A program made the position numbers and the translations under genes. Positions 28,146 through 38,309 of a stretch of 55,581 nt of DNA are shown here, in pieces. The notes under the pieces are model-generated. The model searched no databases. It was not told the origin of the DNA and saw nothing but the letters and a program-made list of their open reading frames with translations. The DNA is from Pelagibius sp. (GTDB taxonomy: Bacteria > Pseudomonadota > Alphaproteobacteria > Kiloniellales > Kiloniellaceae). The DNA is taken from contig NZ_JANQOI010000180.1 of assembly GCF_028289705.1 (NCBI RefSeq), positions 1-55,581 of the forward strand, read 5' to 3'. Numbering within the stretch: the first letter of the stretch is position 1; each line of letters starts with the position of its first letter.

Positions 28146-28543
28146 CTTCCCTCAAAACCCCTTGGTGACCCGTTGAACCCCTCGGCCGCGAACGACCGGG
28201 GGCAGGAAACCACGGCCCCAAGATCCGGTCTGTGAGTTTTCCCATACTCCCGGGCAATTAGTTGCCGCGGTTTTGGGCGGGCGGAGAGGCGCTCCAATGC
28301 CGAGATCAGGGAGAAGATGCTTAAAGGGAGGTTAAGGTCCAGCGCCGCCGATGGGGGATGTTCGAACCAGCCCTCCTTTGCATGAACGCCTTCATGCTCC
28401 AGACCACAACAGTAACTTGCTGCCCGAAGCCAACGCGTAGGATGGCGGGCCATACGAGATGAAAATGCGAACGAGATCTCCCAAAGCGGCCAAGTCAACC
28501 TATGCTTCGACCGCCGATTGCTTATTAGAAAAAGAAGTGACTA
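28146..28543. other. Gap leading into the AT-rich accessory patch
   Basis: No credible gene is seen. Composition falls from GC-rich to AT-rich around 28480, which marks the left side of the accessory patch. Confidence 0.4.
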
Positions 28544-28699
28544 TCATTTCAGCCACAACGGAATAGCAGACATGAATGCCGTTGACAGTTCTCGGCGAGA
28601 TGCCCGTGCCAACGGATCGTCCTCACCAACATCGGAGAGAAATAGGCCGTCCGCAGTCTCCGCCTCGTCCAAAAACAATTTAGGATCATAGTCCTGCAT
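28544..28699 (-). CDS. Possible small protein in the accessory patch
   Basis: A 51-codon frame begins MQDYDPKLFLDEAETADGLF and ends AFMSAIPLWLK. It is acidic, with no membrane segment. It lies 49 bases after the stop of the zinc-ribbon gene, in the same direction, so it could share its transcript. An in-frame GTG at 28708 is an alternative start. The amino acid composition looks protein-like, but no strong ribosome site is visible and no family is recognised. Confidence 0.35.
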   Translation of the reverse strand: MQDYDPKLFLDEAETADGLFLSDVGEDDPLARASRRELSTAFMSAIPLWLK

Positions 28700-28748
28700 C
28701 GAATGCACTACTACCCATGAGGCGGTTAAAACCTAAGAATGCACGCAT

Positions 28749-30119
28749 CTAGTCAATAATTTGAAATGGGTATTTGCAATCCCAATGCATGTGAAATCTC
28801 TCGCCCAATCCGTTGGTTAATGTAGTTTGGCCAGCAGGGTTGCCACATTTAGGACACAACGAACCGCTATCAAGCCATTCTGTTCTTTGCACAATCGGAA
28901 TTGTGAGCTCTTCGATTACTGAGACACAATCCTCTTCTCGATCATACTGAACGCGCTTTTTGCAATCGTAGCAGATTTGCTTTCCTTCTCCCCTTTCCTG
29001 ATCAATCTTGAACGTAAGACTGGTCTCACAATTCTCGGTGGGGCATGGTCGTCGAACTACCGTCTTTGCGGCATCTTCGCCATCATAAATTGTATGGCAG
29101 GAGAAGCAGACAAAATAGACACTTCCTACGTCGGTTTCCTTAAATGCTGGAAGGAACTCCCTTCCACAATCGCAATGAAATCGCCCATCTGGCATGCGGT
29201 TTAATAGCTTCTCCTCATATCTTGGGCCTAGAAAAATTTCTCCTGTTTCTTGATTATGCAGGACGTTTGCTCGGCACCCCTCACAAAACCGGTCGTCAAC
29301 GACTCGACCGTACTTTCCTCGAAAGTCTACAACATGACCGCATCTTGGGCAGTTTGCTTCGATTGACCGTGGCGTTACCTTATGTGAAAGGAGCTCTCGA
29401 GCCCCGATCCTTGATCCAACATTCATTGATCTGCCGACCCCAGATGATCTATTGGACCATCGGTTAACAACCTTTGTACTTCCGTCCCCTAGGCGATGAA
29501 CGTTGAGATCCGTACCACAGTTTTTGCATTCTACAGCTTTAGTTGTTCCTGGTGCTTCTCTTAGGTTTGTGGAATTCACGATTCCACAACTCATGCAATT
29601 GAATGATACTTCTGTATCGATGCCAGATGACTTGTTTGCTTGTTCTAAGAGGGCTTCATTGCGTCTGGGCACATTTATCTGTGGGCGAGCCATCTCGGTC
29701 GGCTCATCACTCTTCACGTAACCCATTTCTTCGATTTCTTTCAGCGAGGTGCCAGAGTCGGCTGCTAAATTCTTCAATGTGAACGCAACAAGCCTGTGCA
29801 TTTCGCGAAGATCTTCAATTTCTGGAAGTTCGTTGCTAAGCGCTTCGATATTCGCCGTTGTCAAATCCACTCGACGTCCCGAAAAATTTGCGAGTCTCTG
29901 CATTTCCTTCTCGAACCGTGCGCGCTCGTTGTTATTAGTAATCAAATAGGACACTAGAACAGTGGCAATGAAGATCAATAGGTCACTGAAGAGCCCTGAA
30001 ACGCCAGTGAATTTCCCCGTGTAGGAGAGGATTATTGAGGTAATAGCTCCAATTGAGGCAACGGAAGCCAACAACCAAATGATATCAATTCTGAACCTGT
30101 CGCCCTCACGTTTCGGCAT
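28749..30119 (-). CDS. Membrane-anchored multi-zinc-ribbon protein, probably horizontally acquired
   Basis: This 456-residue protein has two N-terminal membrane helices (about 10-31 and 41-60), a short coiled segment, and then five or six zinc-ribbon-like units given by CMSC, CKNCG, CPRCG, CEGC, CDCG, CFSC, CPTENC, CYDCKK and CPKCG. No catalytic motif is visible. Codon use is clearly AT-richer than neighbouring genes, which argues for transfer. GGAGA precedes ATG 30119, and a strong terminator lies 17 bases upstream of that ATG. The ribbons could bind nucleic acid or metal at the membrane; a defence or signalling role is possible but unsupported. Confidence 0.8.
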   Translation of the reverse strand: MPKREGDRFRIDIIWLLASVASIGAITSIILSYTGKFTGVSGLFSDLLIFIATVLVSYLITNNNERARFEKEMQRLANFSGRRVDLTTANIEALSNELPEIEDLREMHRLVAFTLKNLAADSGTSLKEIEEMGYVKSDEPTEMARPQINVPRRNEALLEQANKSSGIDTEVSFNCMSCGIVNSTNLREAPGTTKAVECKNCGTDLNVHRLGDGSTKVVNRWSNRSSGVGRSMNVGSRIGARELLSHKVTPRSIEANCPRCGHVVDFRGKYGRVVDDRFCEGCRANVLHNQETGEIFLGPRYEEKLLNRMPDGRFHCDCGREFLPAFKETDVGSVYFVCFSCHTIYDGEDAAKTVVRRPCPTENCETSLTFKIDQERGEGKQICYDCKKRVQYDREEDCVSVIEELTIPIVQRTEWLDSGSLCPKCGNPAGQTTLTNGLGERFHMHWDCKYPFQIID

Positions 30120-30135
30120 TTCAGTTCTCCGAACG

Positions 30136-30159
30136 AAAAAAGGCTCCCTAAAGGGAGCC
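30136..30159 (-). terminator. Rho-independent terminator just upstream of the zinc-ribbon gene
   Basis: On the minus strand GGCTCCC (30159-30153) and GGGAGCC (30148-30142) form a seven-base stem with a four-base loop, followed by six T residues (30141-30136). It ends only 16 bases before the start codon at 30119. It either ends a transcript from the right or acts as an attenuator in the leader of the zinc-ribbon gene. Confidence 0.75.
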
Positions 30160-31013
30160 CACTATAATGCTATGTTAATACTAATTTTAGTATGTTGTGT
30201 GTCGCAACCAGTTCTAGAAGCCATATTTTTCAGCACCTGTCAATCCCGTATCCACATTCCTATAGCATCGATGCGGTAATCTTCGTAGAAATGGGTATTG
30301 GGTGGTAACGTTTTTGTGCCAAGGAGGCCATTTCCTTAAGCACTTAACCGTGAAGGCCGGTAGACCAACAAAAACGTCATAGCCGGGCTGAACAGTTTGA
30401 ATCCGGAGGACGCCGTGCTCGGAACGTTAAGTCGGCATCCTGCGCAGCCCCATCGCGAGCTTGAGGATAGCTTATGATCTTTATGAGTTGGCGGCGGTGG
30501 TCTGGGCGGTTTGGTTGGATGACTTATCGCGACCGGATAGCGGATTAAATCCAGCGGCTTCGGAAACTCCCTCATTCGGCAAGGAAACTGCCGTCATGGA
30601 GTGTCGCGAGAGACAGTATTGCGCCTTGGAGTATGGTGGAGACGGCGAGATTCGAACCGAGCGCTGTGAGCATCATCAAGAAGCTTGTTGGTGAGTACTT
30701 CTCTCGAACCCGTCTTGAAGCACTTCTCGAGTTGGTGCGTATTCCCCTCGATCTAAAAACAAAAGATTGGTCTCAGGTCCAACGGCAAGTGCGTCATTGT
30801 CAGCCTCACTTAGCCCCTCTTATGGAACGTCACTCTTCGCCGAAGATCGACCGTCAGCCCAACACAAATGTCGCCGCTGATCGACTGTTGCAACTAGGTG
30901 TACCACATAGCGACGATAGTCTCCCTTCGCCGCGGCTTCGGAGGACACGCCCAGCTCTAGCGACTTCGCGCGGTGTCCTGGCGTAAGCCGCCCGAAGCTC
31001 GAAGAGCGTAGGG
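30160..31013. other. AT-rich accessory stretch without a credible gene
   Basis: Open frames here are short, lack ribosome sites and look like chance or remnants, including one that begins over a tRNA-like 3' end at 30634. The region is AT-rich up to about 30300 and mixed after that, ending in tRNA-Arg. Confidence 0.45.
30634..30658 (-). other. Remnant of a tRNA or tmRNA 3' end
   Basis: The minus strand reads GGTTCGAATC, then CTCGCCGTCTCCACCA-like bases: a T-loop TTCGAAT followed by an acceptor 3' strand CGTCTCC, A and CCA. The bases before the T-loop do not form the rest of a T-arm, so this is not a complete tRNA. Such leftovers are typical attachment-site copies made by integrating elements. 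No matching full tRNA with a GGAGACG acceptor lies in the window. Confidence 0.55.
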
Positions 31014-31090
<77 letters not shown>

Positions 31091-35037: not shown

Positions 35038-35208
35038 ATGGAGCCGCCTGAAATCATCACCGTGGACAGCGAGCAGGTTGCCTGCGACGGCGGCAAGGGT
35101 GCCCTCGGCCACCCGCTCATTTTCCTCAACATGGAGGGCAAGGGCCAGATCGACTGCCCCTACTGCGGTCGCCGTTTCGTGTTGAAGCAGGATACCGCGG
35201 CGGAGTAG
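35038..35208 (+). CDS. Small zinc-finger protein (zf-CHCC, NDUFS6-like)
   Basis: This 56-residue protein carries ACDGGKGALGHPLIFLNM and, near the end, IDCPYCGRRFVL. The spacing of one Cys, one His and the CPYC pair is that of the zf-CHCC family, related to the complex I subunit NDUFS6 of mitochondria and found in many alphaproteobacteria. GGAG lies nine bases before ATG 35038. In relatives it often sits alone or near unrelated genes; it may help complex I assembly. Confidence 0.8.
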   Translation: MEPPEIITVDSEQVACDGGKGALGHPLIFLNMEGKGQIDCPYCGRRFVLKQDTAAE

Positions 35209-35288: not shown

Positions 35289-38200
35289 ATGCTCGCCGGG
35301 ATGACGTCCCTCCCTTACAAGCACCTCTATCTGGTCGACGGCTCCGGTTATATCTTCCGGGCCTATTTCGCCATTCCGCCGCGCAGCACCGCCGACGGCA
35401 CGCCGACCAACGCGACCTTCGGCTTCACCAACATGCTGATCAAGCTGCTGCGGGACAGCGAGGCGGACGCCCTGGCGGTGATCTTCGACAAGTCCTCCAA
35501 GTCCTTCCGCAACGAGATCTACGGCGACTACAAGGCGCAGCGCCCGGACCCGCCGGAGGATCTGGTTCCCCAGTTCGCGGCGATCCGCGAGGCGACCAAG
35601 GCCTTCAACCTGCCCTGCATCGAGATGGAGGGCTACGAGGCCGACGACCTGATCGCCACCTACGCGCGCCAGGCCAAGGATGCCGGCGCCGAGGTGACCA
35701 TCGTCTCCTCCGACAAGGACCTGATGCAGCTTGTCGACGGCGGCATCGCCATGCTGGACCCGATGAAGGACAAGGCCATCGACCAGAGTGGTGTTAGAGA
35801 GAGATTTGGAGTTGCACCTGAGAGAGTCGTGGATGTGCAGGCGATTGCAGGCGACAACATTGACAATGTTCCAGGCGTTGCGGGGATTGGTGAGAAAATA
35901 GCAATTCAGCTTGTTCAGGAGTTTGGTGATCTTGACGCAATCCTGAACCTGACCGACGGCGAAGTCGTTGAACGACTGAAAGTGGTTCAGACCCAGGCCG
36001 ATGAGTTGGCGGGTGAGCCAGTGAAACTCGGCTCTGCCGAGCAGGTCGGGCGAATCTTATTTGACAAGCTCGGCCTTTCCAGACCGAAAGGTCAAGGAGC
36101 AGAGAATCCGAAGGCGAAGACAGAGGTTATCGAAGACTTTGCCGCGAGTGGCGTTGAGTTTGCCAACTTGGTGCTTCGTGGGCGCCTCCTAGGAAGAGCG
36201 AAGAGTTCTCTCCTGGGAAAGTTACGAAACAACCAAGAGATGGCGCGCATCTCCAAGCGACTCGTCACCCTGGAGCGCTATGCCCCGGTCGAGGAGGGGC
36301 TGGACGGTTTCGGCCTGCAGGAGCCGGAGCCGGAGACCCTGCGCGCCTTTCTGGAGCGCTATGAGTTCCGCTCCGTGCTGCGCCGCCTCTCCGACCAACT
36401 GGGCGGCGAGGCGGCGGCGGAGGCGGCCCCCGAGGCGCCGCCCCCCGGCGAGGCCAAGTACGAGCTGGTGCAGGACCTTGCGGCGCTGGAGCGCTGGGTG
36501 GCGGCGGCGCCGAAGCGTGGGGTGCTGGCGGTCGATACCGAAACCACCTCCCTGGATGCGGTGGCCGCGGAACTGGTCGGCATCTCCCTGGCCACCGAGG
36601 CGGGCAAGGCCTGCTACATCCCGCTGGCCCACAAGGGCGGAACGCCGGGCGACGGCGGCCTGGACCTGGAGGGCGGCGACGCCGAGGCGCCCAAACAGAT
36701 CCCCCTGAAAGACGCCATCGCCGCGGTGAAACCGCTGCTCGAAGACCCCGGCGTTCTGAAGATCGGCCAGAACATCAAGTACGACATGCTGATCTTCGCC
36801 CGCCAGGGCATCCAGGTCGCCCCCATCGACGACACCATGCTGCTGTCCTATGTGCTGGACGGCGGGCTGCACGGCCACAAACTGGACGATCTGGCGCAGA
36901 TCCACCTGGACCACCAGACCATCAAGTTCAAGGAGGTGGCGGGGACCGGCAAGAACCAGGTGACCTTCGACTACGTGCCCCTCGACAAGGCGCTGGACTA
37001 TGCCGCCGAGGACGCAGACATCACCCTGCGCCTGCACCAGTCCCTGAAGCCGCGCTTGGTGAGCGAGCGCATGACCACGGTCTACGAGACCATCGAGCGG
37101 CCCCTGGTACCGGTGCTGGCGCAGATGGAACTGACCGGCATCAAGGCCGACCGCGATACCCTCAGGCGCATGTCCAACGACTTCGCCACGCGCATCGGCG
37201 AGCTGGAAGAGGAGATCCACAAGCTGGCCGGCCGGCCCTTCACCATCGGCTCACCCAAGCAGCTCGGCGAGATCCTCTTCGACGAGATGAGCCTGCCCGG
37301 CGGCAAGAAGGGCAAGTCCGGCGCCTATGCCACCGGCGCCGATGTGCTGGAGGGCCTGGCGGCCCAGGGCCACGACCTGCCGGCGCGGGTGCTGGACTGG
37401 CGCCAGCTCGCCAAGCTGAAGAGCACCTACACCGATGCTCTGCAAACCCAGATCAACGAGGAGACGGGGCGCGTCCACACCTCCTACTCCCAGGCGGTGG
37501 CCTCCACCGGGCGGCTCTCCTCCAACGATCCCAACCTACAGAACATCCCGATCCGCACCGAGGAGGGGCGCAAGATCCGCACCGCCTTCGTCGCCGAGAA
37601 GGGACACGTGCTGCTGTCGGTGGACTACAGCCAGATCGAGCTGCGCCTGACCGCCCACATCGCCGAGGTCGACGCTTTGAAGCAGGCCTTCCATGAGGGC
37701 CAGGACATCCACGCCATCACCGCCGCCCAGGTCTTCGACATTCCCGTCGAAGGCATGGATCCCATGGTCCGGCGCAAGGCCAAGGCCATCAACTTCGGCA
37801 TCATCTACGGCATCTCGGCCTTCGGCCTGGCGCAGAACCTGGGCATTCCCCAGGGCGAGGCCAGGGCCTATATCGAGGCCTACTTCAAGCGCTATCCCGG
37901 CATCCGCGGCTACATGGACCGCACCAAGACGCTGGCCCGCGAGCAGGGCGTCGTCACCACCCTCTTCGGACGCAAGATCCACATCCCGGGCATCAAGGAC
38001 AAGAACCCGGCCAGGCGCAGCTTCTCCGAGCGCGCGGCCATCAACGCGCCGATCCAGGGCACCGCTGCCGACATCATTAAGCGGGCGATGATCCGCGTGC
38101 CGCCGGCCCTCACCAAGGCCGGGCTCGGCGCGAAGATGCTGCTGCAGGTCCACGACGAGTTGCTGTTCGAGGTGCCGGAGACGGAGGTCGAGGAAACCTC

Positions 38201-38309
38201 GGCGGTGGTCCGCGCCGTCATGGAACAGGCCTGCGCCCCCGCCGTCGAACTCTCCGTGCCCCTGGTCGCCGACGCCGGCACCGGCGCCAACTGGGCCGAG
38301 GCGCATTAG
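35289..38309 (+). CDS. polA: DNA polymerase I with an internal insertion and mosaic codon use
   Basis: The protein has 1006 residues, longer than the usual 920-950. Domains are a 5'-3' exonuclease (about 5-310), a 3'-5' proofreading domain ([14 protein letters not shown], about 413-426, and KIGQNIKYD) and the polymerase ([11 protein letters not shown], about 777-787; [32 protein letters not shown]). Bases about 35791-36240 use AT-richer codons than the rest. Between GDLDAIL and [10 protein letters not shown] there are about 92 residues where relatives have about 20-30. That segment resembles the polymerase thumb. Start is ATG 35289 or ATG 35301; neither has a strong ribosome site. Confidence 0.93.
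   Translation: [1006 protein letters not shown]
35791..36240 (+). other. Foreign-looking mosaic segment and duplicated thumb-like insertion inside polA
   Basis: Codons here include many AGA, GTT, GCA, GAA, AAA and ATT choices, unlike the flanks. The first third still encodes normal exonuclease-domain sequence. The rest (about residues 221-312) is extra; its segment [20 protein letters not shown] matches [20 protein letters not shown] of the thumb encoded near 37216-37275. The frame is kept. A recombination with a distant polA, or an assembly chimera, could both produce it. Confidence 0.7.

Follow-up and report, generated by a model that had tools for sequence, protein, structure and literature searches.

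Few enzymes are as conserved or as thoroughly studied as DNA polymerase I (Pol I), the product of polA. In the window, as we call the whole stretch of 55,581 nucleotides from Pelagibius sp. that was analysed, polA lies on the forward strand (35289..38309) as a single uninterrupted open frame, which encodes 1006 amino acids plus a stop and matches the NCBIfam model for DNA polymerase I (NF004397) with 1187.8 bits. The encoded protein begins with a 5' nuclease, composed of an N-terminal domain (residues 13-174, 35325..35810; PF02739, E 1.6e-57) and a helix-hairpin-helix (HHH) part (residues 175-228, 35811..35972; PF01367), and continues with a 3'-5' exonuclease domain (residues 391-590, 36459..37058; PF01612, E 3.2e-32) and a polymerase domain (residues 623-1004, 37155..38300; PF00476, E 4e-170), with the regular polymerase thumb at 37149..37445. 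A pattern search, with patterns taken from general knowledge, found the active-site motifs of all three activities. Behind the HHH part lies a thumb-like second module of ~93 residues (residues 222-314, 35952..36230). Upstream of polA, and like all these features on the forward strand, is a small gene with a CPYC motif (35038..35208), which serves as a marker of the ordinary polA locus; it is 80-93% identical and adjoins polA in all six same-genus loci compared, so that the polA of the window is seen to occupy its ordinary place.

The first-pass annotation of this DNA had described a mosaic segment at 35791-36240, with an in-frame junction within one continuous polA frame, and the composition of the gene bears this out. 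The proportion of G or C at third codon positions (GC3) is 0.94 to the left, 0.54 within 35781-36245 and 0.93 to the right; 83 of the 155 codons inside these limits end in G or C versus 790 of the 851 outside (Fisher p 1.6e-30), and the 155-codon window with the lowest GC3 of the whole gene starts at 35772. Over the entire window, 4.4% of the 450-base windows are equally low in GC; the unusual point is the abrupt change inside one gene, not low GC as such. An AT-rich stretch is present at 28400-30950, where 450-base windows go down to GC 0.43 and which has the appearance of a small genomic island. It includes an ORF on the reverse strand (28749-30119, 456 aa) whose product is apparently Cys-rich and has no Pfam match at E 0.001, and it adjoins two overlapping tRNA-Arg calls made by ARAGORN on opposite strands at 31002-31090 (tcg on the forward, ccg on the reverse strand), which probably represent one real tRNA.

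To map the edges of the tract, the gene was compared without gaps to six polA genes of the genus, and identity was calculated per 30-nt block. Identity is 0.83-1.00 over 35580-35759, except in the block at 35670 (0.70-0.93), and falls to 0.47-0.60 at 35790; over the remainder of the HHH part it is 0.60-0.77 at 35820-35879 and 0.50-0.60 at 35880-35939, the lowest values (0.30-0.40) occur at 35940-35999 and 36159-36218, and at 36249 identity is back to 0.77-0.87. Compared with one same-genus gene (G005), the common sequence GACAAGGCCATCG stops at 35781 and the common sequence GAGATGGCGCGC starts at 36237; the core tract is therefore 35782..36236 (+), with edges slightly to the left of those first proposed. 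It measures 455 nt and stands in place of ~221 nt of the genus-typical gene, and the frame remains open across both homologous edges. From DNVPG to ISK the protein counts 129 amino acids versus 51 in G005, which means that 78 residues have been added, within the 70-90 claimed earlier. The spacing of 51 amino acids up to the IS..L or ISK helix is that of normal relatives, this short segment being a usual rather than a defining trait of Pol I. The tract does not only add these residues, it also swaps the HHH part of the 5' nuclease.

The nature of the additional residues was examined with two protein queries, P0002 for the module (35928-36245) and the longer P0001 for the HHH part and the module together. 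An intein or another self-splicing insert was considered and dropped, since no Hint or homing-endonuclease family was found in P0001 or P0002 (Pfam and NCBIfam, up to E 1). P0002 matches the N-terminal, thumb part of PF00476 (profile positions 7-98, E 7.7e-10) and positions 513-606 of the NCBIfam Pol I model (E 2.5e-10); it also matches the Klenow fragment (E 3.6e-5), other solved Pol I chains being weaker. P0001 matches the regular thumb within this very PolA at 31% identity (E 1.4e-7). The thumb homology that had been proposed for the extra residues is thus confirmed, and the coordinates given for the own thumb (37216-37275) do fall within it, set about 8 bases too early (LAGRPF starts at 37224).

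The module is rare among relatives. In a relatives search, polA was matched in 39 of 41 genomes, the own genome included, and in 37 of 37 polA genes from 36 relatives the two match pieces are only 15-54 nt apart, too close for the module to fit between them; in G025 and G034, two matched relatives outside this count, the distance is 18 and 24 nt. The module is absent from all seven other genus members in this search, and none of the relatives examined within the genus, the family or the order carries it. Close relatives all sharing the insertion with matching codon use, the outcome that the first-pass annotation had set against its own reading, were not seen. Among 60 genomes of the order, no other genome passed E 1e-25 with A2, a model of the HHH part and the module, and in a draw from the phylum 27 of 397 other genomes passed E 1e-22, mostly through the HHH part; the longest of these matches (G694, G081 and G776) have normal spacing on reading. 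In draws from the class (385 genomes), which overlap, are limited like all genome draws to the window's own phylum and could let strongly divergent modules escape, P0002 gave two thumb matches in one frame in one genome (G276) and A2 gave a module-spanning match in another (G161). With the three-sequence model A3, 27 matches were obtained at E 1e-26, of which three span the module, those of the window genome, G276 and G161; all three are included in A3, so their recovery by it is by construction.

Several other candidates were read and rejected. The strongest class hits of P0002 (G417 and G340) have the normal layout, as does G196, and four genomes in which the match extends beyond the HHH part (G213, G095, G216 and G243) are all normal on reading; a match reaching position 129 (G049) was taken as normal by distance only, with 1224 nt from HHH to thumb versus 1515 nt in G276. 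Two observations on relatives may be added. In a same-family genome, polA reads through one TAA stop within its 5' nuclease part (G008:C582:4355-5005), and a genome of the same order (G035) has two full-length polA genes, on contigs C119 and C125.

In the two other carriers, with PolA proteins of 1062 (G276) and 1066 (G161) amino acids, the module likewise lies between the HHH part and the next helix, and the spacing from DNVPG to IS..L is 137 and 139 residues, respectively, versus 51 in normal proteins. Taken on its own, each module aligns to the thumb portion of the PF00476 profile, with E 7.8e-8 and 32.1 bits for G276 and E 2.6e-7 and 30.3 bits for G161, both below the curated cut-off of 34.3 bits, and each matches positions ~515-610 of the NCBIfam Pol I model (E 8.5e-9 and 1.7e-8). 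GC3 of module and host gene is 0.67 versus 0.62 in G276 and 0.86 versus 0.87 in G161; the codon use of both modules is host-like. Sister species of G276 (G043 and G178) and of G161 (G264) are without the module. When G276 is compared with G043, and G161 with G264, similarity is high through DNVPGVPGIG, drops from the next block and is partly recovered at the IS..L helix. The second HHH helix, after GIG, is odd in the carriers, reading GGKSAGPII in G276 (L072), GPTAASACI in G161 (L102) and GEKIAIQLV in the window; normal relatives have a G[IV]KTAAQLI-like sequence there, of which G161 is without the usual lysine. The three carriers belong to three families of Alphaproteobacteria, a rare and patchy distribution, and their assemblies are all fragmented (193 contigs for the window genome, about 320 and about 350 for the others; contamination 2.09, 8 and 2). 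The same layout in G276 and G161 means that the architecture is not peculiar to the window's assembly, and the two-thumb layout looks like a real, rare variant of DNA polymerase I.

Alignment of the three modules with real thumbs gives a mixed picture of what has been retained. The R of helix I is kept in all three, with K or R four residues further; in Klenow-type enzymes this R and K contact the primer duplex. The Y of KSTY and the P of SPKQ are present in 62 of 62 thumbs and lost in 3/3 modules, and the F before that P is likewise lost in all three. Conversely, the K of 'KLG' is found in every module versus 1/62 real thumbs, and ten alignment columns are identical across the three modules. 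With the polymerase-specific Y, P and F lost, the module either has a function unlike the polymerase thumb's or no longer has one. A structural model of the window's module, computed from an alignment of the module with six real thumbs (the own thumb, two from Methylocystis and three from viral contigs), has four helices in thumb order with a mean pLDDT of 87.4. Of the 136 PDB matches that Foldseek gave for this model, the best 50 all come from Klentaq variants or large fragments of Pol I, with TMq 0.70-0.80; the lowest E is 5.9e-4, and 9 of the 136 reach E <=0.001. Because real thumbs are in the alignment, the model shows compatibility with the thumb fold and is not independent proof of it. 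In a full-length PolA model built with seven sequences in the alignment, residues 173-339 are below pLDDT 50, which makes it uninformative for the module; that the module folds as a thumb in the whole protein is a prediction from the isolated model.

Regarding the origin of the module, BLASTP among the fetched sequences gave for the window module a best real thumb at 60.8 bits, the G276 thumb at 53.1 bits, the G276 module at 47.8 bits and no match to the G161 module; for the G161 module, the matches listed besides itself are real thumbs. The thumb of G417 scores 53 bits against the window module versus 33.5 bits for the own thumb, the latter figure coming from a longer query. The earlier suggestion of duplicated thumb material accordingly stands as regards thumb homology, but not as regards a recent copy of the own thumb, since other alphaproteobacterial thumbs match better and the module belongs to a set of three divergent ones at this site. 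In a tree of 62 thumbs and the three modules, all three modules are on very long branches, and the program flags such rows as unsure; a search constraining the modules to one clade reached a likelihood 4.15 above that of the free search (p-AU 0.57), so a single origin of the three modules would be allowed by these sequences.

A donor was sought among genome contigs, viral contigs, phages and plasmids, and none was found in any of them; nor did a search of the window genome's assembly, at thresholds up to E 10, show a second PolA HHH. The best HHH match to the window is 37 of 52 residues among the fetched loci and 68.6% over 51 residues in plasmids. Genome contigs, searched with P0002 and peptide patterns, gave four loci: three are from Methylocystis, with 35% identity and a match to the regular thumb, and the fourth, on an actinobacterial contig (L042), has a shorter match to P0002 and no HHH motif found at the locus. 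In viral contigs, P0002 found one family A polymerase without a 5' nuclease, A1 and the G276 module had no match, and 15 loci matched A3, with alignments confined to the HHH part and ending by query residue 60. P0001 matched 205 phage and 144 plasmid records; five long or best hits among them (L034-L038) all have normal spacing. Erwinia phage hits extend to query residue 117, and the product of phage Y3, annotated as 'DNA polymerase I', has 323 amino acids, the size of a 5' nuclease only. A phage donor was considered and set aside. No plasmid or phage match was obtained with the G276 module, and with the G161 module there were matches, at 34.7%, to four Sinorhizobium records, of which one carries the annotation polA.

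The explanation that we favour, with a probability of roughly 0.6, is that ~220 nt of polA were exchanged for a module-bearing 455-nt stretch from another polA allele, giving a Pol I with two thumbs, of which the second may be an extra grip on DNA. An ancestor of the strain would have made this swap by what was presumably recombination; the incoming allele would stem from another alphaproteobacterium, lower in GC3 and outside the genomes sampled, and would already have had the second thumb module between the HHH part of its 5' nuclease and the following helix. Joined directly behind the HHH part, the thumb would add a putative duplex-binding helical hairpin to the nuclease itself, and one would then expect flap or nick substrates to be held more firmly and flap cutting to be weighted differently against synthesis. 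The weakest step, less likely than not even if the rest holds, is the proposed role of the module: as an additional hold on the duplex close to the 5' nuclease, it would stabilise flap or nick DNA or the passage from polymerase to flap-cutting mode. Still more speculative, and on balance unlikely, is the wider proposal of an undescribed Pol I architecture in which a second-thumb cassette moves among Alphaproteobacteria via recombination within polA, the window being a recent arrival and G276 and G161 older ones, and in which a putative 5' nuclease duplex clamp alters the transfer from synthesis to flap cutting.

The main functional rival accepts that the tract is real and regards the module as a passive passenger, an inert spacer that the protein tolerates. 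The very long branches of all three modules, the loss of nearly invariant polymerase-thumb residues and the rare and patchy occurrence fit such a spacer, whereas three modules that stay open and still fit the thumb profile, the R and the following K or R in 3/3 and the shared K of KLG speak against it, and we regard it as a serious contender with the odds somewhat against it. As to the module's origin, thumbs may have been duplicated independently in several lineages, each time at a site that permits it, instead of one cassette having spread. This would be compatible with the exchange in the window and is plausible without being the expected course of events. The modules resemble real thumbs about as much as each other, and the carriers are in three families with sisters that lack the module; on the other hand, the site is the same, G276 and G161 depart from the sister sequence straight after DNVPGVPGIG and until the IS..L helix, the K of KLG is common to the modules and a single clade was not rejected. 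An assembly chimera, in which the contig was routed through a 455-nt path of another organism's polA in the same sample, had been the main rival in the first-pass annotation and is now rather improbable. The fragmented assembly and a donor-like composition that stops abruptly at both sides would be expected of it, yet it requires two switches within 455 nt, each in frame at homologous positions, no native HHH is left elsewhere in the assembly, and G276 and G161 have the same odd architecture with native codon use. That a copy of the own thumb was inserted upstream within polA and then diverged is hardly credible in spite of its 31% identity to that thumb, since the codon use is unlike the rest of polA, the HHH part has been replaced too and other thumbs match better.

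To our knowledge, the thumb is known only as a part of the polymerase. A natural enzyme whose thumb adjoins the 5' nuclease would show the thumb to be a mobile module, and a core repair gene would be seen to have been altered through within-gene exchange between lineages. A two-thumb Pol I would also lend itself to testing how DNA is held by the 5' nuclease and how activities are switched. In the E. coli enzyme, a 16-residue linker tethers the 5' nuclease, and modelling cited in a single-molecule study of how Pol I switches activities places the acting 5' nuclease above the fingers and thumb (PMC7952088). No report of a second thumb in Pol I was found in the open-licence literature searched. 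A 2026 survey of bacterial polymerases describes most PolA1 proteins as canonical in layout and, in the part available, has no mention of a second thumb (PMC12926913).

Compared with known systems, the PolA of the window has, like the PolA1 group (E. coli Pol I, Taq Pol I), a 5' nuclease, a 3'-5' exonuclease and a polymerase in the usual order with their active-site motifs, and differs from it by the ~93-residue thumb-like module between the HHH part of the 5' nuclease and the next helix. With the stand-alone 5' nucleases of bacteria and phages (for example 6c33, Xni; the Erwinia phage Y3 product) it shares the HHH region; these have no polymerase downstream, and the match to their NCBIfam models ends near residue 59 of P0001, at the start of the module. 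Weak single-sequence alignments run past this residue. The module itself, as modelled, has the helix order of the family A polymerase thumb (the N-terminal part of PF00476); it matches its profile and keeps the R of helix I and the K or R that follows; unlike that thumb, it sits in the 5' nuclease part of the protein, is without the near-invariant Y, P and F, and has K where thumbs have T or N in 'KLG'.
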